From NCBI RefSeq assembly GCF_000152985.1, contig NZ_CH672395.1, positions 1,030,567-1,094,566 on the forward strand: a stretch of DNA of 64,000 bases, in the 5' to 3' direction. Below, one piece after another: positions 3,750-27,384 of this stretch (position 1 is its first letter; each line of letters opens with the position of its first letter). Origin of the DNA: Leeuwenhoekiella blandensis MED217. Lineage in GTDB: Bacteria > Bacteroidota > Bacteroidia > Flavobacteriales > Flavobacteriaceae. The notes beneath the pieces are model-generated. The model was given only the letters and a program-made list of their open reading frames with translations, made no database searches and was not told the DNA's origin. The position numbers and the translations under genes were made by a program.

Positions 3750-3785
3750 CCTCGTTTGGATTAATTTAGTTTAGTTGTTTTTGAT

Positions 3786-5474: not shown

Positions 5475-5480
5475 AGCTTT

Positions 5481-6974: not shown

Positions 6975-6991
6975 AGATCAATTTTTTCTAA

Positions 6992-10270: not shown

Positions 10271-10271
10271 C

Positions 10272-12892: not shown

Positions 12893-12938
12893 TTTGATAA
12901 GTTGAAAGAGAATATTAGATTTGTGTAATCGATTGTAT
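12893..12938 (+). promoter_or_regulatory. Promoter and LacI-type operator of the GH105 operon
   Basis: TTTG at 12893-12896 and TAGATTTG at 12916-12923 are separated by 19 bases and fit the Bacteroidota consensus. The palindrome-like site GTGTAATCGATTGTAT (12923-12938) begins on the last base of the -7 box, so a bound repressor would cover the start point. The GH28 promoter has the same three parts at the same spacing. Confidence 0.6.
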
Positions 12939-12955
12939 TTTTATAAACTACAAAA

Positions 12956-12967
12956 GAAATCGATTTC
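12956..12967. promoter_or_regulatory. Second AATCGATT-type palindrome near the GH105 start
   Basis: GAAATCGATTTC is a perfect 12-bp palindrome 21 bases before the GH105 start codon and about 29 bases (nearly three helical turns) from the centre of the first site. It may be an auxiliary operator for the same regulator. Confidence 0.35.
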
Positions 12968-12988
12968 GTATTTTAAAAATCGCTGTAT

Positions 12989-14215
12989 ATGAAGCAAAAG
13001 ATTCCTTACCAAGCATTTATTCCTTTAGTCCTTTTCTTGTTTTTTATGGGCTGTAAAGAGCGTCGGCAAACCGAAAATATCTCCGCTTCTGTTAAAATGA
13101 AATCAGAACCTGTAAATCAAAAATGGTCTGAGCAAATGGCGCAGTCTATTATGACTCGGCATCCAGAGTCTTATCAGATCGAAGATCGAGACACTCCAAA
13201 ATGGGGGTATACGCATGGTCTTGTGCTTAATGCTTTTTTACAACTGTATAAAGAGACGGGAGATGAAACATATTATAATTATGTAAAAGGCTATTTAGAC
13301 GAACTCATCAATGCAGATGGTTCAATAAAAACCTACCCTTTTGAAGACTATAATATAGATAAGATCAATCCCGGTAAACTGCTTTTTACCTTTTATGAAA
13401 AGACTAGGGAAGAAAAGTATCTTAAAGCGATGCAGCTTTTAAGAAAGCAACTTGAAGAACATCCGCGTACATCACAAGGTGGTTTTTGGCATAAGAAGCG
13501 TTACCCAAGTCAGATGTGGTTAGATGGTCTTTATATGGGGGCGCCTTATTATGCGCAATATGCAGTCACTTATGGTGATGCTGAGAATTTAGCTGATGTT
13601 GCAAAACAGTTTGAACTCATTCAGGAACATGCAATTGATCCCGAAACAAAACTTTTATATCACGGTTGGGATGAAAGTAAAGAACAAAAATGGGCAAATC
13701 CCGTGACAGGGGTTTCACCCAATTTCTGGTCGCGTTCTTTAGGTTGGTACGCGATGGCTTTAGTTGATGTTCTTGATTACTTTCCCGAAGATCATCCTAA
13801 AAGAGCGCTGTTAATTTCGTACTTGAATCAGCTCGTAGAAGCGCTAATTCCTTTTCAGCATGAAAGCGGTTTATGGTACCAAGTGCCTACAATGGGTGAT
13901 AAGGAAGGAAATTATTTAGAAGCTTCGGGATCAGCAATGTTTGCTTATGCCATTGCAAAAGGTGTGAATAAACGTTATCTTGACACTTATTTTAAAACGG
14001 TCGCGAATAAAGCTTTTGACGGGTTAACTCAAAAGCTGATCAAACGTAATGATGATGGTACCATTACACTTACCCAAGTTTGTGCAGTGGCCGGTCTTGG
14101 GGGAGATCCGTATCGCGATGGTTCTTATGAGTATTATGTTAATGAACGCATTCAAACTAATGATCCTAAAGGAACCGGCCCTTTTATTATGGCTGCGCTT
14201 CAATTAGGACGCTAA
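12989..14215 (+). CDS. GH105 unsaturated rhamnogalacturonyl/galacturonyl hydrolase (lipoprotein)
   Basis: A 408-residue protein with a lipoprotein signal (lipobox FMGC, Cys22). The rest is an (alpha/alpha)6 barrel of the GH88/GH105 type: YTHGLVLNAFLQLYKETGD near residue 73, the segment MWLDGLYMG with the likely catalytic Asp179, and NFWSRSLGWYAMALVDVL near 248. These enzymes remove the 4,5-unsaturated uronic acid left at the non-reducing end by pectin or rhamnogalacturonan lyases, by hydrating the double bond. The lipid anchor suggests periplasmic or surface action. First gene of the plus operon; DUF4861 follows after 21 bases. Confidence 0.88.
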   Translation: MKQKIPYQAFIPLVLFLFFMGCKERRQTENISASVKMKSEPVNQKWSEQMAQSIMTRHPESYQIEDRDTPKWGYTHGLVLNAFLQLYKETGDETYYNYVKGYLDELINADGSIKTYPFEDYNIDKINPGKLLFTFYEKTREEKYLKAMQLLRKQLEEHPRTSQGGFWHKKRYPSQMWLDGLYMGAPYYAQYAVTYGDAENLADVAKQFELIQEHAIDPETKLLYHGWDESKEQKWANPVTGVSPNFWSRSLGWYAMALVDVLDYFPEDHPKRALLISYLNQLVEALIPFQHESGLWYQVPTMGDKEGNYLEASGSAMFAYAIAKGVNKRYLDTYFKTVANKAFDGLTQKLIKRNDDGTITLTQVCAVAGLGGDPYRDGSYEYYVNERIQTNDPKGTGPFIMAALQLGR

Positions 14216-14236
14216 CCATTTATATCTAATTAAATT

Positions 14237-15241
14237 ATGAAATTAAACCTTGTTCTAGGTGCGGCATTGCTCGCTGCTTTTGTGTCTTGTAAAGAAAAAA
14301 AAGATAAGAATATTGTAGAAGAAATCGTAGAAATAGAGGAGGTGACTCCTGAAACTTATGCAGAGATTTCAATTAAAAAAGGAGGGTCTTGGAAGGAAGG
14401 CTCACGGGAGTATGATGGCGGAGCATTTGAAAATGTTGACGAACTAGTCGTTCCTGAAGAGCATACAGATCATTCTTGGTATATACGTTATGAAGGTCCG
14501 GGTTGGGAGAATAAACAAATCGCCTATCGCCTATATCTAGACTGGAGAAATGCAATGGATATTTTTGGTAAAAAAGTAGATACGCTGGTGCTTCCATACG
14601 TAGGGACAGATGGTTTTGATTCCTATCATAACAATGCACCTTGGGGGCAAGACATTCTTAAAGCCGGGAAATCTATGGGGATTGGCGGCTATGGAAGATT
14701 CACCGGTGACACGATCGCGCATTTTAACGAAGTAGCAAAAACAAGCGTTAAGGTGGCTAATGAGGAGGCACATTCTAGTGTAACTATTGATTATGAAGGT
14801 TGGAAAACCGGAGACGTCACTACCGATTTAAAATCGGTGATCAGTATTTTTCCTGAAGATCGTTTCCTTAAGGCAGAGCTTACGCCTAATACTTCCTTTG
14901 AAGGTTTGGCTACGGGTATCGTAAAATTTGATGATATTCCTGTAATGGAAGCGACCAGTGAAAGTGGTGCTTGGGCATACATTGCAACCTATGGTGTGCA
15001 AACCCTAGCCGGTGAAAATGATCAATTAGGAATGGCGATCTTCTATAAAACAGATCAGGCTAAAGCAACAGAAGGTCCGCACGACCACTTAGTCGTGTTC
15101 AATGCTTCAACAGAAACACAAACCTATTATATTTTAAGTGCCTGGGATCAAGAACAAGATGGTATCAAGTCTAAAGAAGCTTTTGAGCAGGATTTAAACG
15201 AAAAATTAGCAACACTTGATGCAAATGGTATGCTAGAATAG
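14237..15241 (+). CDS. DUF4861-family lipoprotein of pectin loci
   Basis: 334 residues with a lipoprotein signal (lipobox FVSC, Cys19). The body fits what I recall of DUF4861: a KGGSWKEGSREYDGG start (residues ~47-62), the YEGPGWENKQIAYRLYLDWRNA segment, and NNAPWGQDILKAGKSMGIGGYG near residue 133. The family is found beside pectin and rhamnogalacturonan genes in Bacteroidota; its biochemical role is not something I can state with certainty. It sits directly after the GH105 gene, so it likely acts on the same oligosaccharides in the periplasm. The charged and aromatic residues in the conserved segments would suit a sugar-binding or catalytic site. Confidence 0.7.
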   Translation: MKLNLVLGAALLAAFVSCKEKKDKNIVEEIVEIEEVTPETYAEISIKKGGSWKEGSREYDGGAFENVDELVVPEEHTDHSWYIRYEGPGWENKQIAYRLYLDWRNAMDIFGKKVDTLVLPYVGTDGFDSYHNNAPWGQDILKAGKSMGIGGYGRFTGDTIAHFNEVAKTSVKVANEEAHSSVTIDYEGWKTGDVTTDLKSVISIFPEDRFLKAELTPNTSFEGLATGIVKFDDIPVMEATSESGAWAYIATYGVQTLAGENDQLGMAIFYKTDQAKATEGPHDHLVVFNASTETQTYYILSAWDQEQDGIKSKEAFEQDLNEKLATLDANGMLE

Positions 15242-15305
15242 GTGTACCATACAGTACAGGATAAGCATCGTTCTTGTGATATTTATATTTGACTCATTGC
15301 GAACA

Positions 15306-15317
15306 TTACGATCGTAA
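15306..15317. promoter_or_regulatory. Palindrome upstream of kduI
   Basis: TTACGATCGTAA is a perfect 12-bp palindrome 13 bases before the TGTAAATTTTACA site. It may be a further regulator site; nothing else supports it. Confidence 0.3.
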
Positions 15318-15330
15318 CCTTAAGATAAAA

Positions 15331-15368
15331 TGTAAATTTTACATTTATAAAATAGAATTGTAAATTTG
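15331..15368 (+). promoter_or_regulatory. kduI promoter with 13-bp palindrome (copy 2)
   Basis: TAAATTTG at 15361-15368 matches the -7 consensus. The -33 position, TTTA at 15338-15341, lies inside the palindrome TGTAAATTTTACA (15331-15343), the same site as at 12731-12743. A factor bound here would touch the -33 region. This promoter would start the kdu-uxa-TRAP operon. Confidence 0.5.
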
Positions 15369-15484
15369 AGAAAAGTCAGTGGCGCGATGAGACGCTTATG
15401 ACCTTGTTTTATTCATAAAAGATTGCCGGTTTCTGAAGGTGATCATTGAAAAACGAATCAAATTTTAATCTGAAAAAACACAAA

Positions 15485-16318
15485 ATGACAAAATCAGAAT
15501 TTAGATACGCCCACCATCCAGAAGATGCAAAGCGATACACAACCCAAGAATTAAGAGATCATTTTTTGATCCCAGAATTATTTGTAAAAGATGAGATCAA
15601 CCTTACTTATACAATGTATGATAGATACATTGCAGGAGGTGCATTTCCGGTGGATAAAGCCTTAAAACTTGAAGCGATAGATGAGTTGAAAGCTGAGCAT
15701 TTCTTAGATCGAAGAGAGCTTGGGGTGATCAATGTAGGTGGAAAAGGTAAAATCACTGTTGATGGTGAAGCTTATGAAATTGGACATCGCGAGGCGGTTT
15801 ACGTAGGTAGAGGTGTAAAAGAGGTGATTTTTGAAGCGACTGATGAGCAGCCGTATTTCTATATCAATTCTGCTCCGGCGCATAAGGCATACCCTACAAA
15901 AAAGGTAACCAAAGCAGATGCCGAGGTTGTTGAGTTGGGCGACACCAAGACTTCAAATAAGCGTGTTATTAATAAGCTTCTTGTAAATAGTGTGGTAGAA
16001 ACTTGCCAGTTGCAAATGGGAATGACTGAGCTTCAAGAAGGAAATGTATGGAATACGATGCCGCCACACACGCACGAGCGTAGAATGGAAGTATATTTCT
16101 ATTTCGACTTAGAAGAAGGGCAAACCATCAGCCATTTTATGGGGCAGCCACACGAGACCCGTCATATTTTTATGAAAAATCATCAGGCGGTAATTTCTCC
16201 GGAGTGGTCAATTCACGCAGGTGCAGGAACTTCTAACTATACCTTCATTTGGGGAATGGCAGGAGAGAACCTGGATTATGGCGATATGGATAAAGTAACT
16301 CCAGACGAATTAAAATAA
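15485..16318 (+). CDS. kduI: 5-dehydro-4-deoxy-D-glucuronate isomerase
   Basis: 277 residues from the ATG at 15485 (an upstream in-frame start at 15446 would add 13 residues with no family counterpart). KduI isomerises 5-keto-4-deoxyuronate, made from unsaturated galacturonate, to 2,5-diketo-3-deoxygluconate in the cytoplasm. The bicupin zinc site is visible: His195 and His197 in PPHTHERRMEVYF, Glu202 and His244 in WSIHAG, matching the known E. coli ligand pattern. Length is normal for the family. KduD follows after 7 bases and takes its product. Confidence 0.96.
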   Translation: MTKSEFRYAHHPEDAKRYTTQELRDHFLIPELFVKDEINLTYTMYDRYIAGGAFPVDKALKLEAIDELKAEHFLDRRELGVINVGGKGKITVDGEAYEIGHREAVYVGRGVKEVIFEATDEQPYFYINSAPAHKAYPTKKVTKADAEVVELGDTKTSNKRVINKLLVNSVVETCQLQMGMTELQEGNVWNTMPPHTHERRMEVYFYFDLEEGQTISHFMGQPHETRHIFMKNHQAVISPEWSIHAGAGTSNYTFIWGMAGENLDYGDMDKVTPDELK

Positions 16319-16325
16319 AGACAGT

Positions 16326-17087
16326 ATGAGTTTTTTTAGTTTAGAAGGAAAAACAGCTTTAGTAACCGGTTGTAAACGTGGAATTGGCTTCGCAATGGCA
16401 GAAGCTTTAGCAGAAGCGGGTGCAGATATCCTTGGCGTATCTGCGTCTTTAGAGACTTCGGGTTCTGCTATAGAAAAGGCTGTTTTGGCCACGGGTAAAA
16501 AATTTACAGGATATCAATGTGATTTTTCAGATCGCAAATCGCTCTATGCTTTTATTGAAAAAGTAAAGTCAGAGAACAGTAAGATCGATATTCTCGTAAA
16601 TAATGCCGGGACTATTTTAAGAGCACCGGCCGCAGAGCACAGCGATGAGTACTGGGACAAAGTGATCGAAGTAAATCAAAATGCCCAGTTTATTTTGAGT
16701 CGTGAACTGGGTAAAGAAATGGTGAAACGAGGGAGTGGTAAAATCATATTCACAGCCTCTCTGCTCACTTTTCAAGGTGGAATTACCGTTCCCGGATACG
16801 CTGCTTCTAAAGGTGCTATAGGCCAGCTTACGATGGCTTTGTCTAACGAGTGGGCAGGTAAAGGAGTGCAGGTAAATGCAATAGCTCCGGGATATATCGC
16901 TACAGATAATACCGAAGCTTTACGTGATGATCCAGACCGCAGTGCCTCCATTCTTGCACGTATTCCTGCAGGTAGATGGGGAAAACCAGAAGATTTTAAA
17001 GGCCCTATAATTTTCCTTGCATCACCTGCAAGTGATTATATGAGCGGGACTGTAATGACCGTTGATGGCGGTTGGATGGGTAGATAA
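16326..17087 (+). CDS. kduD: 2-dehydro-3-deoxy-D-gluconate 5-dehydrogenase (SDR family)
   Basis: 253 residues of classical short-chain dehydrogenase: cofactor motif TGCKRGIG (residues ~14-21), NNAG near residue 93, and the catalytic Tyr158-x3-Lys162 in GYAASKGAIG. The C-terminus ends in the SDR pattern MSGTVMTVDGGWMGR. It reduces 2,5-diketo-3-deoxygluconate to 2-keto-3-deoxygluconate (KDG), using NAD(P)H. Its place right after kduI makes the KduD identity strong compared with other SDRs. Confidence 0.93.
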   Translation: MSFFSLEGKTALVTGCKRGIGFAMAEALAEAGADILGVSASLETSGSAIEKAVLATGKKFTGYQCDFSDRKSLYAFIEKVKSENSKIDILVNNAGTILRAPAAEHSDEYWDKVIEVNQNAQFILSRELGKEMVKRGSGKIIFTASLLTFQGGITVPGYAASKGAIGQLTMALSNEWAGKGVQVNAIAPGYIATDNTEALRDDPDRSASILARIPAGRWGKPEDFKGPIIFLASPASDYMSGTVMTVDGGWMGR

Positions 17088-17108
17088 TACCAAAAATAAA
17101 ACAAGATT

Positions 17109-18536
17109 ATGAGTACAGCAGATACAGCAAGCCGTGTGAAGAACACGTTTATTACAGATAACTTTCTTTTGCAAAATAAATATGCAGAAGAACTTTATCA
17201 CAAGTATGCGGCACCACAACCTATAATCGATTACCACAATCATCTGCCACCGGCAGAGATTGTGGCAGATCGTCAATTTGAGACGATTTCTCAGGTGTGG
17301 CTTAGTGGTGATCATTATAAATGGCGGGCCATGCGCACGCTTGGTGTAAATGAGCGTTTTATCACTGGTGACGCTAGTGATGAGGAAAAGTTTTTAGCTT
17401 GGGCAAAGACTGTTCCCCACACGTTGCGTAATCCATTGTATCATTGGACGCATCTTGAGTTGAAGCGTTATTTTGATATTGATGAATTGCTTAATGAGCA
17501 GTCTGGTCCGGAGATCTATAAGGAAGTGAATCGCCAGTTACAGCTTAAAGAAAACAGCTGTCGCGGTTTGCTAAAGCAAATGAATGTAGAGACGGTTTGT
17601 ACTACAGAAGATCCACTTGATACGCTAGAGCAACATCGTAAGTATGATGGTAAAAAGGCTGGACTCAATATGAGCACAGCTTTTCGTCCTGATAAAGCAA
17701 TTTTGATTGAAGCTGAAGGTTTTAATGCTTATCTAAATGAGCTGGAGGATGTAGCCAAAATAAGTATTGCTACGTATACAGATCTGCAGGATGCCTTACG
17801 TCAGCGTATCGACTTTTTTCACGAGAACGGCTGCAGACTTTGTGATCACGGCTTAAACCAGATTTCTTGGGCAGAAGCTTCAGAAGCAGAGATCAAAGAG
17901 ATCTTTAAAAAGCGCCGGGGAGGTGCAGATCTAGCACCGCAAGAAGTAGAGCAATTTAAAACGGCTATTCTGCTCTTTTTAGGAGAAACCTATCACGAAT
18001 TAGGTTGGGTTCAGCAGTTTCACTTGGGAGCTTTACGCAATAATAATAAACGAATGCTGGCTCAATTAGGTCCGGATACCGGATGGGATTCGATAGGTGA
18101 TTATTCACAGGCAGAAGCTTTATCTAATTTTCTAAACGCTTTAGACAGCAAAGACAAATTGACCAAAACCATCATTTACAATTTGAACCCTTCAGACAAT
18201 GAAGTGATGGCGACGATGATAGGAAATTTTAATGATGGAAGCGTGAAAGGTAAAGTACAACTTGGTTCCGGATGGTGGTTTTTAGATCAGAAAGACGGGA
18301 TGGAAAAACAAATGAACGCGCTTTCTAATATGGGGCTCATCAGTTGTTTTGTTGGAATGTTAACAGACAGCCGTAGCTTTTTATCTTTTCCGCGTCACGA
18401 GTATTTTAGAAGAGTTTTATGCAATCTTTTTGGTCAAGAAATCGCTTCTGGTGAATTGCCTAATGATATGGATCTGGTGGGGCAAACTATTGCTAATATT
18501 AGCTATCATAACGCTAAGGAATATTTCAACTTCTAG
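17109..18536 (+). CDS. uxaC: Glucuronate/galacturonate isomerase
   Basis: 475 residues, normal for UxaC. An amidohydrolase-like TIM barrel: the N-terminal metal motif DYHNHLPP near residue 40, LYHWTHLELKRYF near 109, and the conserved QFHLGALRNNN segment near 302, then GDYSQAEALSNFL and the C-terminal FPRHEYFRR. The enzyme opens both uronate branches: D-galacturonate to tagaturonate and D-glucuronate to fructuronate. Its products go to UxaB, encoded in the same operon, and to the mannonate oxidoreductase type SDR encoded at 30854. Confidence 0.96.
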   Translation: MSTADTASRVKNTFITDNFLLQNKYAEELYHKYAAPQPIIDYHNHLPPAEIVADRQFETISQVWLSGDHYKWRAMRTLGVNERFITGDASDEEKFLAWAKTVPHTLRNPLYHWTHLELKRYFDIDELLNEQSGPEIYKEVNRQLQLKENSCRGLLKQMNVETVCTTEDPLDTLEQHRKYDGKKAGLNMSTAFRPDKAILIEAEGFNAYLNELEDVAKISIATYTDLQDALRQRIDFFHENGCRLCDHGLNQISWAEASEAEIKEIFKKRRGGADLAPQEVEQFKTAILLFLGETYHELGWVQQFHLGALRNNNKRMLAQLGPDTGWDSIGDYSQAEALSNFLNALDSKDKLTKTIIYNLNPSDNEVMATMIGNFNDGSVKGKVQLGSGWWFLDQKDGMEKQMNALSNMGLISCFVGMLTDSRSFLSFPRHEYFRRVLCNLFGQEIASGELPNDMDLVGQTIANISYHNAKEYFNF

Positions 18537-18542
18537 AATAGG

Positions 18543-19556
18543 ATGGGTACAACTCAAAAAATAGTCACCTTTGGTGAAGTGTTGCTTAGGCTTTCTCCCG
18601 CAGAAAACCGAAAGCTATCACAAGCAAAATCCCTAGATTTTTTCTTTGGAGGTACCGAGATGAATGTAGGGGCTTCTTTAGCTGTTTTAGGCGAAGATGT
18701 GGCACACATTACCGCAGTTTCTGATGATATAGTGGGTGATGCTGCGTTAGCGAGTATGAGACAATATGGGCTTGATGTTTCAGCCGTTCAAAAAGTAGCA
18801 CATCCTATAGGTCAATATTTACTTGAAGTAGGTTCTGGAATGCGCAGCAGTCAGATTGCTTACAATCGTTTGAATGGTTCATTTGCCAATATTCAGCCTG
18901 AAACTATAAACTGGGATCAGACTTTTGAAGATGCAGCTTTTTTTCATTGGACGGGTATTACACCGGCAATTTCTGAGGCTGCTTACCAAGCTTTAAAAGC
19001 CGCTTTGATTTCCGCGAATGCGAAAGGATTACAAATCACTGCAGATCCTGCATATCGAAGTAATCTGTGGCAATATGGGCGTAACGGTCAGGAGGTTTTG
19101 AAAGAACTCGTAGGGCTTTCAACCATTTTTATTGGTGGCGTAAACGAGATCAATGAAATTCTGGGAACTTCTTTTGAATTGAATCAGGAAGGCTTTATCG
19201 CCGCAAGCAAAAAGTTGATGACCGAATGTCCCAATATCAAGCAGGTTTTTGATAAAATACGAACCGGTTTAAGTGCTTCCTGGCAAAAGATTTATGGGCG
19301 AGCTTGGGTTGATCAAACCTATATAGAAACCAATGAACTTGAAATCACACAAGTGGTTGATCGCATTGGTACCGGTGATGCTTACGCAGCTGGTTTGATT
19401 TATGGTTTACTTCATTATGATGCTGAAAAAGCCTTGAATTTTGCTAATGCCGCGTGTGCATTGAAGCATACCATTTTGGGAGATGTGAACTTAGTTTCTG
19501 TAGCTGAAATAACCGAAGTTATGCAAGGCAATACAGGAGGAAGAATTAAAAGATAA
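18543..19556 (+). CDS. kdgK: 2-dehydro-3-deoxygluconokinase (PfkB family)
   Basis: 337 residues with the PfkB layout: N-terminal GGTEMNVGASLAVLG (the GG switch, residues ~32-46) and the C-terminal signature RIGTGDAYAAG with the catalytic base Asp279. It phosphorylates KDG to 2-keto-3-deoxy-6-phosphogluconate. The gene begins 6 bases after uxaC and 11 bases before the aldolase gene, which gives the two-step KdgK-KdgA route in one transcript. The sugar specificity follows from this context. Confidence 0.94.
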   Translation: MGTTQKIVTFGEVLLRLSPAENRKLSQAKSLDFFFGGTEMNVGASLAVLGEDVAHITAVSDDIVGDAALASMRQYGLDVSAVQKVAHPIGQYLLEVGSGMRSSQIAYNRLNGSFANIQPETINWDQTFEDAAFFHWTGITPAISEAAYQALKAALISANAKGLQITADPAYRSNLWQYGRNGQEVLKELVGLSTIFIGGVNEINEILGTSFELNQEGFIAASKKLMTECPNIKQVFDKIRTGLSASWQKIYGRAWVDQTYIETNELEITQVVDRIGTGDAYAAGLIYGLLHYDAEKALNFANAACALKHTILGDVNLVSVAEITEVMQGNTGGRIKR

Positions 19557-19567
19557 AAAAATACTTA

Positions 19568-20239
19568 ATGGCAAAATATACTCGAATAGAAGTAGTGCTT
19601 CAGATGAAAGAAAATGGGATTGTACCGGTTTTCTATAATGCAGATCTAGAGGTTTGTAAACAGGTTTTAAAGGCTTGTTATGATGGAGGATTACGCACTT
19701 TTGAGTTTACCAATCGTGGCGATTATGCGCACGAAGTTTTTGGCGAACTCAACAAATTTGCTAAGGCAGAACTCGACGGGATGATGATGGGAGTGGGTTC
19801 GGTTTTAGATGCCGGCACGTCATCGTTGTACATTCAGCTGGGAGCAGATTTTATTGTTTCACCGGTGGTTAATGCCGAAATGGCAAAAGCGTGTAACCGT
19901 CGAAAAGTAGCCTGGATGCCGGGATGTGGTTCGGTTTCTGAAATTTCGTATGCCGAAGAATTGGGAGCAGAAGTGGTTAAGATATTCCCAGGTGCGCAGG
20001 TAGGAGGTCCGGCTTTTGTTAAAGGAGTTAAAGGGCCATTACCTTGGGCAAGCATTATGCCTACCGGAGGTGTGAGCCCAACCGAAGAAAACCTTAAAGA
20101 ATGGTTTGCAGCCGGTGTACACTGTGTAGGAATAGGATCAAAACTCTTCATTAAAAATGCTGAAGGCGCATTTGATTACGCTGCCATTAGCAGTAAAATT
20201 AAAGAAGCGCTTCAGCTGGTTAAAACCTTACGTTCATGA
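19568..20239 (+). CDS. kdgA: KDPG / 4-hydroxy-2-oxoglutarate aldolase
   Basis: 223 residues of a class I aldolase barrel. The Schiff-base lysine is Lys138 in VVKIFPG (matching the KFFPA region of the E. coli enzyme), and MPTGGVSPTEENLKEWFAAG forms the phosphate-binding region. It splits 2-keto-3-deoxy-6-phosphogluconate into pyruvate and glyceraldehyde 3-phosphate. Its stop overlaps the dctP start by 4 bases (ATGA), so the two are translationally coupled. Confidence 0.94.
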   Translation: MAKYTRIEVVLQMKENGIVPVFYNADLEVCKQVLKACYDGGLRTFEFTNRGDYAHEVFGELNKFAKAELDGMMMGVGSVLDAGTSSLYIQLGADFIVSPVVNAEMAKACNRRKVAWMPGCGSVSEISYAEELGAEVVKIFPGAQVGGPAFVKGVKGPLPWASIMPTGGVSPTEENLKEWFAAGVHCVGIGSKLFIKNAEGAFDYAAISSKIKEALQLVKTLRS

Positions 20240-21228
20240 AAAGTTTAAAACACGTATTCGTTTTTACGCTGGCAACCGTATTGCTGTTAAGTAATTACAG
20301 CTGTACAGAGGCTTCTGATACCCGCGTTATCAAACTTGCTCACGGGCTGGATGTAACACATCCCGTACATAAAGCGATGGTCTTTATGGGCGAACGCCTG
20401 AAGGAAAAGTCAGCTGGGAAAATGAGTTTAGATATTTATCCCAGTCAGCAGTTAGGTTCTGAGCGTGAATGCCTGGAGCTTTTGCAAATAGGTAGTCTGG
20501 GAATGACAAAAGTATCTACCGGTGTTCTTGAGAATTTTGCTCCACAACTTAAAGTTTTTGGTCTCCCCTTTTTGTTTAGAGATGCAGAACATCGTTTTGC
20601 TGTATTAGAGGGAGAGATCGGCGAAAAGCTTTTGAGTTCAAGTATCCCGCAGCGTTTAAAAGGACTTACTTTTTATGATGCAGGAAGCCGTAGTTTTTAT
20701 ACAAAAGAGCCCGTTGAAACTCCAGAAGATTTAGAAGGCTTAAAACTTCGTGTGATGGAGAGTCAAACCGCTATGAATATGGTGAAAAACTTAGGAGGTT
20801 CGCCTACGCCTATTGCTTGGGGTGAGTTATACACCGCTTTGCAGCAAGGTGTTGTAGATGGTGCAGAAAATAACCTGCCCAGCTTTTACTTATCGCATCA
20901 TTATGAAGTGTGTAAATATTTTGTGGTAGACGAGCACACGGCATTACCTGACGAACTTTTAATAAGTACATTGATCTGGAATGACTTGTCTGAAGAAGAA
21001 CAAAAATGGGTGAAGGAAGCAGCCGACGAATCGCTCGAGTTTGAAAAGAAAATTTGGCACGAAGCAGAGATGGAAGCCCTTGCAGAAATTCAAAAGGCAG
21101 GAGTTGAAGTTATAACTCCAGATAAAGAACCCTTTCGCAATCGTGTGAAATCGATGTATGAGCAATTTTCTGAAGATCCTGATATGAAAGAACTCATTGA
21201 AGCAATTCAAGCGGTTAAAACCAATTAA
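20236..21228 (+). CDS. dctP: TRAP transporter substrate-binding protein (lipoprotein)
   Basis: 330 residues; the signal peptide ends in SNYSC, so it is probably a lipid-anchored periplasmic receptor instead of a free one. DctP features: IKLAHGLDVTHPVHKAM near residue 32, EDLEGLKLRVMESQTAMNMVKNLGGSPTPIAWGELYTALQQGVVDGAENN at about 163-215, where the conserved Arg (KLRV) pairs with the carboxylate of organic-acid ligands. It likely brings uronates to the DctQM permease encoded next. The carboxylate ligand is known for the family; the uronate identity is inferred from the operon. Confidence 0.92.
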   Translation: MKSLKHVFVFTLATVLLLSNYSCTEASDTRVIKLAHGLDVTHPVHKAMVFMGERLKEKSAGKMSLDIYPSQQLGSERECLELLQIGSLGMTKVSTGVLENFAPQLKVFGLPFLFRDAEHRFAVLEGEIGEKLLSSSIPQRLKGLTFYDAGSRSFYTKEPVETPEDLEGLKLRVMESQTAMNMVKNLGGSPTPIAWGELYTALQQGVVDGAENNLPSFYLSHHYEVCKYFVVDEHTALPDELLISTLIWNDLSEEEQKWVKEAADESLEFEKKIWHEAEMEALAEIQKAGVEVITPDKEPFRNRVKSMYEQFSEDPDMKELIEAIQAVKTN

Positions 21229-21229
21229 T

Positions 21230-21697
21230 ATGAAACAAAAGTTAGACAAAATCCTTGGAGCTATTTTAGTTTTTCTAATGGCTTCAATCGTTATCGCAGT
21301 GCTTTGGCAAGTGTTTTCACGTTATGTGCTTCAGTCTGCGAGTTCGTTTACCGAAGAAATCGCGCGGTATTTATTGATCTGGATTGGTATTCTGGGAGCA
21401 GCATATGCCGCGGGCCAACAAGACCATTTGGCGATTAATATTCTTCCGCCTAAGCTCGATGAAAAAAGCCGAATCAAACTTCGTATTGGGATCAATATCC
21501 TGATTATGTTGTTTGCATTTTTTGCACTCATCGTTGGTGGTGCAAATTTGGTTTACGTCAATTTTGAATTAGGACAATACTCTGCAGCCTTGGGATTACC
21601 CTTAGGAGTTGTTTATGCAGTATTACCTATCAGCGGAATTTTAATTATCTGGTATAAAGCCATTGAATTGGCTAATCCTCAAAAATATTTAGCCTAA
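21230..21697 (+). CDS. dctQ: TRAP transporter small permease subunit
   Basis: 155 residues from the ATG at 21230, which directly follows the dctP stop; an upstream in-frame ATG at 21197 lies inside dctP and is less likely. Four hydrophobic segments are seen at about residues 8-30, 45-62, 83-105 and 122-142. The motif SFTEEIARYLLIWIGILGAAYAAG is typical of DctQ. It pairs with the large subunit DctM, whose start codon overlaps its stop (TAATG). Confidence 0.93.
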   Translation: MKQKLDKILGAILVFLMASIVIAVLWQVFSRYVLQSASSFTEEIARYLLIWIGILGAAYAAGQQDHLAINILPPKLDEKSRIKLRIGINILIMLFAFFALIVGGANLVYVNFELGQYSAALGLPLGVVYAVLPISGILIIWYKAIELANPQKYLA

Positions 21698-22983
21698 TGA
21701 TCGAAGTTTTAATTCTTGTATTGGTATTTTTTGTGTTGTTAGGTATTGGGGTTCCGGTGGCTTGGTCTATTGGTATTTCTTGCCTCTTAACCATTATGGT
21801 TTCTATAGATTCGCTAGCTAGTGTTACCACGATAGCCCAGCGTATGGCAACCGGTTTAGACAGTTTTTCACTCTTGGCAATTCCGCTTTTTGTACTTGCG
21901 GGGCAAATCATGAATCAAGGAGGTATCGCTCTGCGACTCATCAATTTTGCAAAAGCCTTAATGGGAGCTTTGCCAGGTGGACTCATCTATGTCAACGTCA
22001 TTGCAGCGATGCTTTTTGGAGCGATCTCAGGATCTGCGGTAGCTGCAACTTCTGCAATTGGTGGAATTCTAGGGCCTTTTATGGAAAAAGAAAATTATTC
22101 TAAAGAGTTTGGGGCAGCGATTAATATTACTGCTTCAACTACGGGATTGATCATTCCTCCCTCTAATGTGTTGATCGTGTATTCTCTAGCGAGTGGTGGC
22201 GTTTCTATTGCGTCACTCTTTTTAGCAGGCTATATTCCTGGAATTTTAATGGGACTCGCTCTGATGCTTGTCGCTGCATTTTGGATCAAAAAGAAAGGAT
22301 ATCCGGCAGGAGAACGTAGTAGTCTAGGAGCTGTTTTGAAGACCTTTTTAGACGCTTTACCTAGCCTCTTGTTACTTGTAGTCGTAATTGGAGGTATTGT
22401 AACCGGTATTTTTACCGCAACTGAAGCTTCAGGGATTGCAGTTTTGTACTGCTTAGTATTGTCTTTTGCCTATCGCGAGTTAAAAGTATCTAGCCTAAAA
22501 AGTATCTTCTTAAATTCTGTGGGTACTACAGCTATTGTAATGCTTTTGATCGCTACTTCTATGAGCATGTCTTGGGTGATGTCTTTTGAAAATATTCCAC
22601 AAAATGTAAGTGCTGCTCTGCTTTCACTTAGCGAAAACAAATTTGTAATACTCATCATCATCAACATCCTGCTTTTATTTGTGGGTACTTTTATGGATAT
22701 GACTCCCGCAGTCTTGATTTTTACACCTATATTTTTGCCGGTAGTAACCAGCATGGGTGTAGAGCCTGTACAATTTGGAATTATGATGGTGATGAACCTG
22801 TGTGTGGGACTTTGTACACCACCGGTGGGCGCAGTACTTTTTATTGGAGTAGGAGTCGCTAAAACATCTATCCAGAAAATTATGAAGCCGTTGCTGCCAC
22901 TTTATGCCGTTATGGCGATTATCTTATTAATGGTGACTTTTATCCCGGCAATAAGCCTTTGGTTACCGTCACTCTTTGAATAA
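21697..22983 (+). CDS. dctM: TRAP transporter large permease subunit
   Basis: 428 residues, about 11-12 hydrophobic helices, the usual length for DctM. Conserved pieces are IPLFVLAGQIMNQGG near residue 62, the GAISGSAVAATSAIGGILGP loop near 109, TTGLIIPPSNVLIVYS near 148, and DMTPAVLIFTPIFLPV near 332. It drives sodium-coupled uptake across the inner membrane. With DctP and DctQ it supplies free uronic acids to the UxaC/KduI enzymes of the same operon. Confidence 0.95.
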   Translation: MIEVLILVLVFFVLLGIGVPVAWSIGISCLLTIMVSIDSLASVTTIAQRMATGLDSFSLLAIPLFVLAGQIMNQGGIALRLINFAKALMGALPGGLIYVNVIAAMLFGAISGSAVAATSAIGGILGPFMEKENYSKEFGAAINITASTTGLIIPPSNVLIVYSLASGGVSIASLFLAGYIPGILMGLALMLVAAFWIKKKGYPAGERSSLGAVLKTFLDALPSLLLLVVVIGGIVTGIFTATEASGIAVLYCLVLSFAYRELKVSSLKSIFLNSVGTTAIVMLLIATSMSMSWVMSFENIPQNVSAALLSLSENKFVILIIINILLLFVGTFMDMTPAVLIFTPIFLPVVTSMGVEPVQFGIMMVMNLCVGLCTPPVGAVLFIGVGVAKTSIQKIMKPLLPLYAVMAIILLMVTFIPAISLWLPSLFE

Positions 22984-23012
22984 AACTAACCTATTTCAAC
23001 CTAGATTAACCT

Positions 23013-24452
23013 ATGGAAAACTTAAACAGAACTAACGTGGGATATACCGAAAAACTACCTATAAAAGTCATTCAATATGGCGAGGGTAATTTTTTGAGAG
23101 CCTTCGTAGATTACATTATAGATAAACTGAATAAAGAAGCCAACTTTAACGCCGGAGTTGCAGTAATTCAACCTCTTGCAGGCGGAATGGTGGGGATGTT
23201 GAATGAACAGGACGGACTTTACAACTTGTTTTTAAGAGGTATTAAAAATGGGGAAGAGACCGAAGAGATTCATACCATTTCTTGCGTTCAAGACGGAATT
23301 AACCCCTACGACGATTATGAGCGGTATCTGGCCTTAGCCGAAGGTGAAGATCTAGAGTTTTTGATCTCAAACACTACTGAAGCAGGAATTAGTTTTGACG
23401 ACAGTGATACGCTAGAGGGTACACCGCATTCTAGTTTTCCGGCAAAAGTTACTGCCCTTCTATATAAACGCTTCAATCATTTTGATGGAGCAGCAGATAA
23501 AGGACTTACGATCATCCCTTGTGAATTGATCAACCATAATGCAGATACGCTTAAAAAAATCATTTTACAGTATGCAGATTTGTGGGAGTTGGGGGATGCA
23601 TTTAAATCATGGATAGAGACCAGTAATAGCTTTCACAATACTTTAGTAGACCGCATTGTGCCGGGTTATCCTAAAGATGATATTGATGCGTATCAAAGTC
23701 AGTTAGAATTTAAAGACAACCTTATTGTTTCAGCAGAAACCTTTTTGCTTTGGGTAATTGAAGGCGATGAGGCTTTAAAAGCTAAAATTCCGTTTGATCA
23801 GATAGACGATAACGTTTTGGTAGTTGAAGATATGCAGCCGTATCGCACGCGTAAGGTGCGTATTCTTAATGGCGCGCATACGACAATGGTACCGTTTTCT
23901 TTGCTCTACGGAAATGAAACCGTAAAAGAAACAGTAGACAATGAGTTTACCGGTAAGTTCGTGCGTGATGCAGTTTTCAACGAAATTAATCCAACCCTTG
24001 ACCTTTCTGAAGAAGAACTGAATGAGTTTGCAGCTGCGGTTTTTGATCGATTCAGAAATCCGTTTATCAAGCATTTGTTATCTAGTATTGCACTCAATAC
24101 GGTATCAAAATTTAAAGTGCGTGTGCTTCCTAGTCTTTTAGCTTTTGAGCAAGCGTACAATCGATTACCTGAAAATCTTACCTTTGCTTTAGCTTGTTTA
24201 ATTCGGTTTTACAAAGGCACTTGGAAGGGTAAAGCATTGCCCATTAAAGACGATGCAGCCGTTGTTGCATTTTTTGATGAGGTGTGGAAAGAAGACAATT
24301 ATGCGGCAGTTTCTCAAGCTGTGTTAAGCAATTTGACATTTTGGGATCAAGACCTGACCAAGATTGAAGGATTAGAAGAGCGCATCACTACAGCGCTTGC
24401 CTTAATTGAAGAAAACGGAGTAGAAGAAGCCTATAAAAAATATACAGTTTAA
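23013..24452 (+). CDS. uxaB: Tagaturonate reductase (altronate oxidoreductase)
   Basis: 479 residues of the mannitol-dehydrogenase family. The N-terminal Rossmann part shows VIQYGEGNFLRAFVDYIID (residues ~9-27), and the C-terminal domain has the catalytic segment RKVRILNGAHTTMVPFSLL near residue 284, with the conserved K-x-x-x-x-N-G-x-H core. It reduces tagaturonate to altronate with NADH. It lies between the TRAP transporter and uxaA, the enzyme for its product. The alternative UxuB (fructuronate) is less likely because the galacturonate genes surround it. Confidence 0.92.
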   Translation: MENLNRTNVGYTEKLPIKVIQYGEGNFLRAFVDYIIDKLNKEANFNAGVAVIQPLAGGMVGMLNEQDGLYNLFLRGIKNGEETEEIHTISCVQDGINPYDDYERYLALAEGEDLEFLISNTTEAGISFDDSDTLEGTPHSSFPAKVTALLYKRFNHFDGAADKGLTIIPCELINHNADTLKKIILQYADLWELGDAFKSWIETSNSFHNTLVDRIVPGYPKDDIDAYQSQLEFKDNLIVSAETFLLWVIEGDEALKAKIPFDQIDDNVLVVEDMQPYRTRKVRILNGAHTTMVPFSLLYGNETVKETVDNEFTGKFVRDAVFNEINPTLDLSEEELNEFAAAVFDRFRNPFIKHLLSSIALNTVSKFKVRVLPSLLAFEQAYNRLPENLTFALACLIRFYKGTWKGKALPIKDDAAVVAFFDEVWKEDNYAAVSQAVLSNLTFWDQDLTKIEGLEERITTALALIEENGVEEAYKKYTV

Positions 24453-24475
24453 GAGCTGTTATTAAGATTAAAAGT

Positions 24476-26092
24476 ATGAAGAGTAAGCTGATAAAAGTTC
24501 ATCCTGATGATAATGTAGCAGTAGCTCTGGTAGATTTATTTGCCGGAGATGTTGTAGAGTTTGAAGGACAATCCCTCAAAATTTTAACCGATTCTAAAGC
24601 GAAACATAAAATAGCCTTGGTCAATTTAAAGGCTGATGATCCTATTTTTATGTATGGCGTTTTAGTGGGTAAAGCTTTAAGTGCAATCGATGTGGGTGGT
24701 TTGCTTACTACAGAGAACGTAAAGCACGAGGCTAATTCGGTATCTCAAAAAACAGAGACTACCTCGTGGACGGCTCCAGATATTTCAAAATGGAAAGACC
24801 GCACTTTTATGGGCTACCATCGTGAAGATGGCCAAGTGGGTACACAAAATGTTTGGTTGTTTTTTCCCCTGGTGTTTTGTGAAAACCGAAACATTGAGTT
24901 GCTTAAAGACGTTTTTGAGAAGGAACTTTCTTTTCATAAAGCGAGTAAGCAACGTCAACTCTTGCGCAATTTAATCAATGGCGCTCCAGAAGATACAGCT
25001 GTAGCAGAAATAGAGGAGGAGCAGGCTATTTTTGATAATATTGAAGTGAAATTTATCACCCATCAGGGCGGCTGTGGAGGCATTCGTCAGGATTCGGTTT
25101 CCTTATCAAAACTGCTCGCGGGTTATGTAAATAATCCCAATGTTGCCGGTGCGACCGTTTTAAGTCTTGGATGTCAAAACCTGCAAATAGATATTTTTAA
25201 AAATGCCCTTGCAGAGAAAAGTGCAGCCATCAAAAAGCCTGTGCTTATTTATGAGCAGCAACAAGAAGGCACGGTAGATGAAATGCTAGCTAAAATCATT
25301 AAAGACTCTTTTGAAGGAATCAAAAAAGCCAATCAGATCAAGCGTCAACCAGCGCCTATCTCTAAATTGAAAATGGGCTTAGAATGCGGTGGTTCTGATG
25401 GGTTTTCAGGGATTTCTGCAAATCCCGCTTTGGGTTATGCGTCAGATATTCTAGCTGCAGTAGGAGGTTCACCTATACTTTCAGAATTTCCAGAATTATG
25501 CGGTGTAGAGCAAGAATTGGTCAATCGTTGTGTTTCTGATGAAGATGCAGAACGTTTTATGCACTTGATGAAGGCTTATGAGAAATCGGCCGTAGATGCC
25601 GGTTCTGGCTTTGATATGAATCCATCTCCGGGAAATATCAAGGATGGTTTGATCACCGATGCGATGAAATCTGCCGGAGCAGCCAAAAAAGGAGGAACTT
25701 CACCTATTCAAGCAATTCTCGATTATGGTGAATATGTCACCAAACCGGGATTGAATTTACTTTGTACTCCCGGAAATGATGTAGAAAGTACCACGGCTAT
25801 GGTGGGTTCTGGTGCCAGTGTTGTGGTGTTTACTACAGGATTGGGTACGCCTACAGGAAATCCTATCGCTCCTGTGCTTAAAGTGGCCTCAAACAGTACC
25901 TTAGCGCGCAGAATGCCAGATATTATAGATATAGATAGTGGTGCGGTTATACGCGGAGAGAAAACTATTGAGGAAATGGGAGAAGAAATTCTAGAACACG
26001 TCATTCAGGTTGCGAGTGGCGAAGTGCAATCAAAAGCTGATGCGCTAGGGCAAGATGATTTCATCCCCTGGAAACGTGGAGTATCTCTTTAA
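24476..26092 (+). CDS. uxaA: Altronate dehydratase
   Basis: 538 residues, normal for full-length UxaA. An N-terminal SAF-like domain (about residues 1-80) is followed by the GYHREDGQVGTQNVWLFFP segment near 117, HQGGCGGIRQDS near 197 and LKMGLECGGSDGFSGISANPALGYASDIL near 300, which carry the conserved cysteines of this iron-dependent dehydratase. It turns altronate into KDG. Last gene of the operon; a strong hairpin terminator follows 27 bases after its stop. Confidence 0.95.
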   Translation: MKSKLIKVHPDDNVAVALVDLFAGDVVEFEGQSLKILTDSKAKHKIALVNLKADDPIFMYGVLVGKALSAIDVGGLLTTENVKHEANSVSQKTETTSWTAPDISKWKDRTFMGYHREDGQVGTQNVWLFFPLVFCENRNIELLKDVFEKELSFHKASKQRQLLRNLINGAPEDTAVAEIEEEQAIFDNIEVKFITHQGGCGGIRQDSVSLSKLLAGYVNNPNVAGATVLSLGCQNLQIDIFKNALAEKSAAIKKPVLIYEQQQEGTVDEMLAKIIKDSFEGIKKANQIKRQPAPISKLKMGLECGGSDGFSGISANPALGYASDILAAVGGSPILSEFPELCGVEQELVNRCVSDEDAERFMHLMKAYEKSAVDAGSGFDMNPSPGNIKDGLITDAMKSAGAAKKGGTSPIQAILDYGEYVTKPGLNLLCTPGNDVESTTAMVGSGASVVVFTTGLGTPTGNPIAPVLKVASNSTLARRMPDIIDIDSGAVIRGEKTIEEMGEEILEHVIQVASGEVQSKADALGQDDFIPWKRGVSL

Positions 26093-26118
26093 GACAACCC
26101 TATAGATTAAGAAAATTG

Positions 26119-26150
26119 AAAAAAAGGAGGCTGTTTAGCTTCCTTTTTTT
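26119..26150. terminator. Bidirectional terminator between uxaA and the LacI-family gene
   Basis: An AAAAAAGGA-GC stem pairs with GC-TCCTTTTTT around a TGTTTA loop, with A and T runs on both sides. The hairpin overlaps the last codons of the convergent LacI-family gene, so it can serve both transcripts. Confidence 0.85.
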
Positions 26151-27169
26151 GATGAGGTATCCCGAGTATAAAGTTCCGGGCTTAACACCACTTTTTTCTC
26201 AACTTGAACGTTTTTCTTAACATCAGAGATTTGTTCTAAAAATACTTGAGCAGCAATCTGTCCCATAAGAACCGGTGTTTGGCCCACAGTAGTCAATGGT
26301 CGTTCTAGATATTTTGTAAAGGGTTCGTTACTAAAACCTACAACCCCTATATCTTCAGGAATTTTAAAACCATGAGCGCGTAATTCACGCATGCCTCCCA
26401 GAGCAACATAATCACTTGCAGAAAATAGGGCATCAAAAGCGATCTTGCGCTTCATCAATAATTTTACGGCTTCAATACCTGCTTCAACAGTACTGCTTAC
26501 CTGCATAATTAAGTTTTCATCAATAGCAATATTATGATCATTGAGTGCAGCAACATAACCATCATAACGATGCTTGTAAATCTGTAATTTATGATCACCG
26601 CCTATATGCGCTATTTTTTTATAGCCTTGCTCAATTAGATGGGTAGTGGCATTGTAAGCACCTTCGTAGTCGTTAATCGTAACCGAACTCACACCCGAAA
26701 TATCTTTTTTACGATCAAAAAAGATAAGCGGTATGCCTTCATCACGTACTTCCTCAATATGCTTTACATCTTCTGTAGTTTTAGATACTGAAATGAAAAT
26801 TCCATCAATATGTGTATTCAATAAAGTCTTAAGCTGCTTGGCTTCATTGTTTACATCTTCGTGAGATTGACAAATAATAACGTGATAACCTTTAGGCTCA
26901 AGTTCTTCCTCAATACCTCGTATTACCGAAGCAAAAAAGGTGTGATTGATGTACGGAACCACAACACCTACGTTAAATGTTCTACCACTTTTCAAGGCAA
27001 GTGCAAGTGCATTTTGTTGATAGTTAAGCGCCTTGGCTGTCTTCAGCACCAGCTCTTTGGTCTTTAAACTCACGCGGTTGCTGTCGTTTAGCGCACGTGA
27101 TACCGTTGCGGCACTGATATTTAATTTTTTCGAAATATCATAGATGGTTACCTTTTCTTTTTGACGCAT
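26135..27169 (-). CDS. LacI-family transcriptional regulator
   Basis: 344 residues. N-terminal helix-turn-helix VTIYDISKKLNISAATVSRALND (residues 7-29, broken here by no gap) with the hinge helix region KALNYQQNALALALKSG, then a periplasmic-binding-protein-like ligand domain from residue ~62 (FNVGVVVPYINHTFFASVIRGIEEE; VTINDYEGAYNATTHLIEQGYKKIAHIGG). It sits between the two catabolic operons and reads toward the first. Palindromes of AATCGATT type at the GH105 and GH28 promoters are the natural candidate operators. The inducer is probably a uronate intermediate; both points are inference. Confidence 0.93.
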   Translation of the reverse strand: MRQKEKVTIYDISKKLNISAATVSRALNDSNRVSLKTKELVLKTAKALNYQQNALALALKSGRTFNVGVVVPYINHTFFASVIRGIEEELEPKGYHVIICQSHEDVNNEAKQLKTLLNTHIDGIFISVSKTTEDVKHIEEVRDEGIPLIFFDRKKDISGVSSVTINDYEGAYNATTHLIEQGYKKIAHIGGDHKLQIYKHRYDGYVAALNDHNIAIDENLIMQVSSTVEAGIEAVKLLMKRKIAFDALFSASDYVALGGMRELRAHGFKIPEDIGVVGFSNEPFTKYLERPLTTVGQTPVLMGQIAAQVFLEQISDVKKNVQVEKKVVLSPELYTRDTSSKKGS

Positions 27170-27334
27170 AACTTTTAGAGGATTGTAATCGTTTTCAATT
27201 TAGAGTTTTTTTTAATCATTTAATAGATTCTCAACTTTTTTCACTTCTAAGCAATAATCATAATTGGCTTTATCCATTATGAAATGATTGTTATTTTGAG
27301 GTTTAAAATCAATTTTCAATAAATCTCAGTGCTT

Positions 27335-27384
27335 TTTGTTTGCATACTCGTAATTAATATTTATTTTTATGCAATCGATTGCAT
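27335..27384 (+). promoter_or_regulatory. GH28 promoter with perfect 16-bp palindromic operator
   Basis: TTTG at 27339-27342, 19 bases, then TATTTTTA at 27362-27369 (one mismatch to TAnnTTTG). The perfect palindrome ATGCAATCGATTGCAT (27369-27384) begins on the last base of the -7 box, exactly as at the GH105 promoter. The palindrome also lies in the region shared with the divergent LacI-family gene, which may thus control itself. Confidence 0.6.

Follow-up and report, generated by a model that had tools for sequence, protein, structure and literature searches.

A pectin and hexuronate locus with two alike promoters

The window, a stretch of 64,000 nucleotides from the marine bacterium Leeuwenhoekiella blandensis MED217, carries two operons with a LacI-family gene between them. 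The close, same-strand arrangement of the genes suggests that operon 1 is a single unit.

12989 to 26092, forward strand: operon 1, encoding GH88/105, DUF4861, KduI, KduD, UxaC, KdgK (PfkB), KdgA, the TRAP transporter DctPQM, UxaB and UxaA (Pfam)
26135 to 27169, reverse strand: LacI-family regulator P0001, 344 amino acids (PF00356, Peripla_BP_1/3)
27441 to 28892, forward strand: GH28 polygalacturonase-type gene, the first of operon 2 (PF00295)

P0001 combines an N-terminal LacI helix-turn-helix (PF00356, 43 bits against a cut-off of 27) with a periplasmic-binding-protein-like domain (PF00532 and PF13377), as LacI-family transcription factors do, and its family and fold are beyond doubt. The PF13377 match ends at residue 339 of 344, leaving five residues, and by these Pfam boundaries no C-terminal tetramerisation helix of the type present in the looping repressor E. 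coli LacI was found. The recognition helix, ISAATVSRAL, is identical in two orthologs (L054 and L063) and carries one or two changes in three others (L061, L066 and L068).

Six promoter and operator elements precede the two operons.

12893 to 12896, forward strand: TTTG at -33, GH105 operon promoter (sequence)
12916 to 12923, forward strand: -7 box TAGATTTG, GH105 promoter (6 of 6 to TAnnTTTG)
12923 to 12938, forward strand: operator O1 GTGTAATCGATTGTAT, GH105 operon (sequence, genome-wide pattern search, orthologous loci)
27339 to 27342, forward strand: TTTG at -33, GH28 promoter (sequence)
27362 to 27369, forward strand: -7 box TATTTTTA, GH28 promoter (5 of 6 to TAnnTTTG)
27369 to 27384, forward strand: operator ATGCAATCGATTGCAT of the GH28 operon, a perfect 16-bp palindrome (sequence, pattern search, orthologous loci)

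An earlier note on this DNA had read the two promoters as sharing one layout, and the reading is exact to the base: at both, 19 bases separate TTTG from the -7 box, each 16-bp site begins on the final base of its box, and the two sites are the same at 13 of 16 positions, as it had claimed. Transcription is predicted to start at about 12928 (GH105) and 27374 (GH28). Both sites are even palindromes with a central CG, in line with the rule described for LacI-family operators (PMC4052901), and both promoters show the TAnnTTTG -7 box and weak -33 element of Bacteroidota sigma-A promoters. The GH105 box carries a G at -10, a base reported as 'virtually zero' at that position in F. johnsoniae promoters (PMC6847099), and G at -10 or -9 in boxes of the GH105 type is unusual against that set. 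In the GH28 box, the final G of TAnnTTTG is replaced by A.

The arrangement TTTG, 19 bases and box (at least 5 of 6) has four matches on both strands of the window, two of which are these promoters. The octamer AATCGATT occurs seven times in the window against 2.03 expected, a count reached in none of 100 shuffles, and the only exact matches to RTGYAATCGATTGYAT in the 4.24-Mb genome are the GH105 and GH28 sites. A whole-genome spacing histogram based on TTTGN{0,20}AANCGNTT was abandoned because its background was too high (524 + 497 matches).

Conservation of the register and co-occurrence with the regulator

The earlier note had named a lack of conservation in relatives as grounds for refuting its proposal; as judged by sequence comparison, position and register are kept in most orthologous loci. 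We aligned 32 pectin/uronate promoters from six genera, chosen for a core before a gene and not for a box. The -7 box at the operator offset scores at least 4 of 6 in all 32 and at least 5 in 30, whereas the -33 TTTG is weakly conserved, since only 17 of the 32 keep it exactly. Left out of this count were operon 1 of L071, whose DNA is the same as that of L070; L072, which has 44% identity and lacks a box; L093 and L113, where either the box or the gene is missing; L109, L110 and L115, where the match falls within a gene; the sites at the lacI start; and additional AATCGATT octamers in L065, L067, L068, L070 and L071. No core was found before operon 1 in L056, L062 (short contig), L064, L067, L068 and L069, or on the divergent side in L058, L059, L060, L063 (contig end), L064, L069 and L070, and AATCGATT is missing from the stretch around the LacI orthologs of G063 (L064) and G026 (L069). 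Two genomes without a core at the usual place have a site elsewhere, before kduI (L114 for G052, L117 for G027).

Across 299 Flavobacteriaceae genomes, the in-register element co-occurs with the LacI lineage of P0001, being present in 39 of the 42 genomes with an ortholog and in 15 of the 257 without. When TGYAATCGATTRC, a motif set before the survey, was required, the counts were 31 of 42 and 0 of 257; with NGYAATCGATTRC, picked afterwards, they were 38 of 42 and 0 of 257. Fisher values on these counts take no account of shared ancestry. Three genomes have the ortholog with the element uncounted, namely G010, G026 and the window's own genome (G000), the last because its GH105 site reads AATCGATTGT and its GH28 box ends in A, so that the strict family pattern is missed. 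Thirty loci were sampled from the survey: 20 of the 23 from LacI-bearing genomes lie upstream of susC or of a GH28, pectate-lyase or uronate-pathway gene, while the seven from genomes without the ortholog comprise five inside long frames, one with no clear gene and one before an aldolase gene.

These counts also bear on the idea that the identical layout is a coincidence, or exists because one of the promoter regions was duplicated recently. AT-rich DNA does often yield TAnnTTTG-like boxes, which occur at 0.9% of positions at a threshold of at least 5 of 6. Against this, the flanking DNA outside box and site differs between the GH105 and GH28 promoters, the register recurs throughout the aligned set, and the in-register spacing gives 112 matches in 54 genomes, compared with 15 matches in 13 genomes when the spacing is increased by 5 bp. 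We therefore give this idea practically no credence.

The main binder of the pectin sites could also be a paralogous LacI protein rather than the neighbouring P0001. The genome holds six PF00356 matches. For the closest paralog (2952302-2953315; 36% identity), ACGCAATCGATTGTGT, with the common AATCGATT core, lies in register upstream of a susC gene; as this paralog owns a similar site, cross-binding is possible. At E <= 1e-80, however, its group is unrepresented in G011 and G007, which both retain the two operators, so this paralog cannot be the sole regulator. Paralog sites in L139-L142 depart from the operator consensus TGYAATCGATTRCA outside the core, and the TGYAATCGATTRC element follows P0001 orthologs. 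The exclusion covers the closest paralog, one of five LacI proteins besides P0001, and we consider a paralog very improbable as the main binder. Among the five other LacI neighbourhoods of the genome only two show non-genic palindromes, in register in L092 and out of register in L126, so we do not extend the register to LacI proteins in general. A susC site at position 2012959 of the same genome is out of register.

Further operator candidates in the proposed regulon

Four additional sites were noted.

12954 to 12969, forward strand: leader operator O2 AAGAAATCGATTTCGT, 31 bp centre-to-centre from O1
24155 to 24170, forward strand: intragenic operator candidate GTACAATCGATTACCT in uxaB (conservation)
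27183 to 27198, reverse strand: operator candidate TTGTAATCGTTTTCAA at the lacI start (conserved core near the lacI start)
39377 to 39392, reverse strand: degenerate site AAGTAATTGATTGTAA, some 70 bp upstream of fbp (comparison with relatives)

The inventory of the earlier note was right about the two promoters and the leader palindrome, which is present as GAAATCGATTTC at 12956-12967, and missed the lacI-start, uxaB and fbp sites as well as the conserved leader spacing. The core AATCG[A/T]TT and the main site are 31 bp apart, centre to centre, in five of nine loci (the window, L053, L054, L055 and L057) and 21 bp apart in a sixth (L061); the core is absent in L058, L059 and L060, where the divergent and lacI sites are absent too. 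Both spacings are close to the peaks at 32 and 22 bp reported for paired LacI-family sites (PMC4052901), which supports the suggestion that this third palindrome may help. Of the 22 upstream regions compared, 10 have the same core no more than about 40 bp from the lacI start.

In uxaB, AATCGATT is kept in 11 of 12 Leeuwenhoekiella genomes, a count that includes L065, of the same genus, as the one without the site. Only 55 of 12,501 octamers are missing from no more than one of the genus genomes, and the uxaB AATCGATT is the sole palindrome among them (0.0014 expected). Among 462 uxaB windows scored for synonymous conservation, those that begin 5 to 2 codons upstream of AAT take the top four ranks. 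Three other candidates were dropped: an octamer in uxaC at 17225, not kept among the compared loci; one in a fasciclin gene at 12212, kept among these loci in L053 only; and one where the GH28 coding sequence begins (GAAATCGATATC, 27460-27471), a would-be second site that was too inconsistent, since the related octamers lie at 89 bp in L053 but at 74 bp in L057.

At the homologous fbp position, an intact AATCGATT is found in four of six relatives compared; in the two fbp promoters examined, the site is out of the -7 register and the -7 box is missing at that offset. P0001 might be an activator or dual regulator, similar to CcpA or Cra on some promoters, instead of a plain repressor. LacI-family proteins such as Cra and CcpA can activate from sites upstream of the -7 box, and from our reading of the upstream sequences the fbp site seems to lie upstream of a possible -7 box and not over the start. 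In the aligned pectin promoters, in contrast, the site lies over the predicted start, which is the position for occlusion, and promoter-overlapping cre boxes are described as repressing (PMC3463425). An activating or dual role is, in our judgement, unlikely.

P0001 as a probable local repressor, and related systems

Altogether, we consider it highly probable that P0001 acts locally, through start-point operators, to repress the catabolism of pectin and hexuronates. The proposal of the earlier note, that the intervening LacI-family regulator is the start-point repressor of both operons, is supported by the conserved register and by the ortholog co-occurrence; repression itself is what we infer from them. 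A P0001 dimer would bind cre-like even palindromes of consensus TGYAATCGATTRCA. As its first base is also the final base of the sigma-A -7 box, the operator would cover about -5 to +11. Without inducer, P0001 would prevent promoter opening or promoter escape at both the GH105-uxaA operon and the GH28 operon, and would limit its own gene through the lacI-start site. Repression of operon 1 may be aided by the second site three helical turns downstream (two in one species), the uxaB site may serve as an elongation roadblock or an auxiliary operator, and a sugar acid of the pathway (galacturonate, KDG or similar) would release P0001. A broader scenario, which strikes us as possible but on balance doubtful, is that in Flavobacteriaceae the LacI lineage evolved with an element of -7 box and operator, fused in one invariant register, that spread as a unit to new genes, together with a selected uxaB operator (roadblock or auxiliary) in a 12-gene operon and control of the gluconeogenic fbp.

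For the use of pectin and uronates in this large, mostly marine family, the analysis supplies a regulator together with an operator consensus, and predicts where transcription starts. The rigidity of the register means that regulon members can be found by pattern alone, and it provides an inducible promoter design that could readily be used in Bacteroidota. With the uxaB and leader sites, models of roadblock and cooperation become testable.

The best-scoring solved homologs of P0001 are CcpA proteins. Its operator matches the strong cre consensus TGAAAGCGCTTTCA of Bacillus subtilis CcpA at TG, AA, CG, TT and CA, with T and A beside the central CG where cre has G and C, and the known CcpA sites include some that overlap promoters and others that form roadblocks downstream (PMC3463425). 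CcpA, however, regulates globally and together with HPr-Ser-P, whereas P0001 would control a local regulon, and the likeness between them is one of sequence; a global role is disfavoured by the small number of sites in each genome, most of them at a single locus.

In the portions of the literature available to us, we found no description of these pectin/uronate operators, and a search with AATCGATT gave none on the subject by title among the matches listed. P0001 and its sites make a well-supported example of a gene switch of an established type, that of the LacI-family uronate regulators of Bacteroidota. The pectin PUL of Gramella flava contains kduI, uxaA, uxaB, TRAP genes and an annotated hexuronate repressor gene, exuR (PMC5306329); there the regulator is known by annotation only and the available text describes no operators, whereas operators are predicted here. 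In Bacteroides, KdgR (BT0487), UxaR (BT0824) and UxuR (BT1434) are LacI-family proteins predicted by comparative genomics to control glucuronate/galacturonate use (PMC3878776, PMC4052901). Going by their descriptions they resemble P0001 in family, in uronate catabolism and in phylum, although a register to the -7 box, as found for the P0001 sites, goes unmentioned in the accessible parts of these reports. Another Bacteroidota regulator of the LacI family, UxuR2 of Algoriphagus marincola HL-49, is assigned to galacturonate/glucuronate loci with the TRAP transporter UxuPQM-II (PMC5507952); like P0001, it is linked to uronate loci with a TRAP transporter and, albeit from a different genus, may be its ortholog.

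Promoters of the two pectin operons

The pectin and uronate genes form two operons with a LacI-family gene (344 aa, minus strand) between them. Operon 1 encodes GH88/105, DUF4861, KduI, KduD, UxaC, a PfkB kinase, KDPG aldolase, a TRAP transporter, UxaB and UxaA; the second, on the divergent side, begins with GH28 and continues with esterase/lipase-type genes, an SDR, UxuA and a cupin. The best-scoring solved homologs of the LacI-family protein are CcpA proteins, and orthologs at 85 to 89% protein identity occur in Leeuwenhoekiella palythoae, marinoflava, aestuarii and polynyae. The earlier note had described an identical layout at both promoters, which we found to match exactly, base for base (first two entries; the other two are further candidate sites outside that layout):

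12893-12938, GH105 promoter: TTTG (12893-12896), 19 bases, box TAGATTTG (12916-12923), site GTGTAATCGATTGTAT (12923-12938)
27339-27384, GH28 promoter: TTTG (27339-27342), 19 bases, box TATTTTTA (27362-27369), site ATGCAATCGATTGCAT (27369-27384)
27183-27198, operator candidate at the lacI start: TTGTAATCGTTTTCAA
39377-39392, LacI-type site, degenerate in the window, about 70 bp upstream of the fructose-1,6-bisphosphatase gene (fbp)

TTTG-N19-box with at least 5 of 6 box matches occurs four times on both strands of the window, two of the four being these promoters, and exact matches to RTGYAATCGATTGYAT are confined to them in the whole genome (4,244,565 bases). This rarity in window and genome confirms that the shared layout is real and above chance expectation. 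In the consulted portion of PMC6847099, the -7 box of Flavobacterium johnsoniae promoters occupies positions -12 to -5; on this basis transcription is predicted to start at 12928 and 27374, with the operators over -5 to +11.

A minus-strand susC/susD pair amid fasciclin-domain genes adjoins the pectin operon (2295-12506), and AATCGATT is absent from its promoter region; susC and a fasciclin gene also adjoin operon 1 in the relatives' loci L053, L054 and L057-L060. Elsewhere, a 3865-aa open frame (41432-53029) is followed by a PorP/SprF gene at 53063, an arrangement that resembles the pairing seen for adhesins of gliding motility or type IX secretion.

Conservation of the element and its co-occurrence with the LacI ortholog

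We compared 20 stretches, each up to 20 kb, around LacI orthologs of relatives. In most of these loci AATCGATT sites recur, in register, upstream of operon 1 and of the divergent gene, bearing out the conservation upstream of orthologous uronate genes that the earlier note had proposed to look for. The divergent-side site is kept although the gene varies (GH28, susC or SDR); in loci L064 and L069, AATCGATT is nowhere in the compared stretch. When 34 promoters from six genera (13 of operon 1, 13 divergent, 6 others and 2 fbp) were aligned on the central octamer of the operator, TAnnTTTG matched on average 5.09 of 6 at the window promoters' offset, the runner-up offset giving 3.82. The box reached at least 4 of 6 in 32/32 non-fbp promoters and at least 5 in 30/32, and both fbp promoters had 1 of 6 at the same offset. 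The -33 TTTG was exact in 17 of the 32 non-fbp promoters, in agreement with a -33 element that is weak in F. johnsoniae too, as far as the same portion of PMC6847099 describes it.

Across 299 Flavobacteriaceae genomes, the element pattern TANNTTNGNNNAATCGATTNC was matched 112 times, in 54 genomes; the controls gave 15 matches in 13 genomes (spacing +5 bp) and 24 matches (pattern reversed; counted by hand). The LacI ortholog, defined by E <= 1e-95, is present in 42 of the 299, and the element occurs in 39/42 of these versus 15/257 others. Requiring TGYAATCGATTRC, a motif set before this test, left 31/42 versus 0/257, and requiring NGYAATCGATTRC, picked after viewing the match list, 38/42 versus 0/257. 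Fisher values overstate the association because related genomes are not independent; counted by genus, the figures are 50/236 for the element and 36/236 for the ortholog. Three LacI-bearing genomes lack the pattern (G000, the window's own, G010 and G026), G000 because its GH105 site is AATCGATTGT and its GH28 box has a final A. An earlier search of 77 genomes (13 from the genus, 64 others; orthologs at >=50% identity) had found TGYAATCGATTRCA in 14/19 genomes with an ortholog versus 4/58 without, three of these four having intragenic hits and one a hit with no gene start nearby.

To describe the targets, we sampled 30 loci from the 112 matches, one per genome. Seventeen elements precede homologs of window pathway proteins or susC (kduI 6, susC 4, SDR/UxuA 2, and kduD, uxaC, uxaB, DUF4861 and GH28 1 each). 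Further targets assigned by Pfam are PF00544 pectate lyase (3), a laminin-G-type protein (1) and class II fructose-bisphosphate aldolase (1), and one is a protein without a Pfam match; among the remaining 7, L150, L153, L155, L165, L167 and L169 lie inside long frames and L164 has a short frame only. In LacI-bearing genomes, 20 of 23 sampled loci stand before pathway, susC or pectate-lyase genes, the other three being L157 and L159, before other genes, and L153, inside a frame. The seven from genomes without the ortholog comprise five inside frames, one without a clear gene and one before the aldolase. This last locus is L152, where element-like TAATTTGGCGCAATCGATTTC lies upstream of the class II fructose-bisphosphate aldolase gene in a genome without the ortholog at E <= 1e-95.

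Additional operator candidates

In the GH105 leader, a second site, AATCG[A/T]TT, lies 31 bp centre-to-centre from the main operator in 5/9 loci and 21 bp in 1/9, and is absent in 3/9; paired LacI-family sites have spacing peaks at 13, 22 and 32 bp in the consulted part of PMC4052901. A site similar to the lacI-start candidate lies near the lacI start in 10/22 upstream regions. The core of the fbp site is intact in 4/6 relatives and changed at one base in the window copy. Gluconeogenesis is required for growth on uronates, so the candidate agrees with the regulon. The fbp site is seen in L130, L131, L104 and L105, and CGAAAACGATTTCG occupies the homologous place in L133 and L134 (genomes G004 and G005).

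A further candidate lies inside uxaB (codons TAC AAT CGA TTA), where AATCGATT is kept in 11/12 genus genomes, the uxaB of L065 lacking it. Across twelve genes, 55 of 12,501 octamer windows are missing from at most one genome, and the uxaB octamer, singled out post hoc after being noticed, is the sole palindrome among them, against a composition-based expectation of 0.0014 (0.0006 when restricted to the 11 genomes carrying it). Synonymous conservation within uxaB peaks at the octamer in the 12 genomes, L065 included. The octamer lies outside the promoter register, and the more distant uxaB genes, those of L062, L066, L067, L070 and L071, lack it. Coding regions contain under 1% of the predicted LacI-family sites, according to the part of PMC4052901 consulted.

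The probable regulator and its place among known systems

The window's own genome has six PF00356 matches. The paralog nearest to the pectin LacI (36% identity) owns CGCAATCGATTG sites; at E <= 1e-80 it has no match in three genomes: G011 and G007, where both pectin operators are kept, and G009, where the pectin LacI and the sites are missing as well. The neighbouring 344-aa protein is the best candidate for the regulator of the pectin sites, the closest of the five paralogs being the only one individually compared. Locus L092 (G000:C1:2943000-2960000, locus position 9107) holds a LacI paralog with in-register ACGCAATCGATTGTGT upstream of a susC gene, which suggests that the start-point operator design recurs in another regulon. 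Sites of this type score 5, 4, 5 and 4 of 6 for the box, in the better orientation, in the own genome and three relatives. In L093 (G000:C1:2008000-2018000, position 4960), ATACAATCGATTGTAG lies about 35 bp upstream of a susC gene, out of register.

From family knowledge we infer binding, repression and an inducer at the pectin promoters: a LacI dimer on an operator at -5 to +11 would block open-complex formation or promoter escape. The candidate uxaB site may act as an auxiliary site or as an elongation roadblock, of the kind reviewed for PurR, GalR and CcpA (PMC10310618, in part). Galacturonate/glucuronate genes are predicted to be under LacI-family control in Bacteroides (PMC3878776, PMC4052901) and likewise in Algoriphagus (PMC5507952), in the sections consulted. 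Among the open-licence papers listed on the subject, no title or abstract opening describes these operators. LacI-family control of uronate genes is thus already known as a type, to which the present case is a well-supported new addition; unusual about this system are the strict promoter-operator register and the intragenic candidate site.
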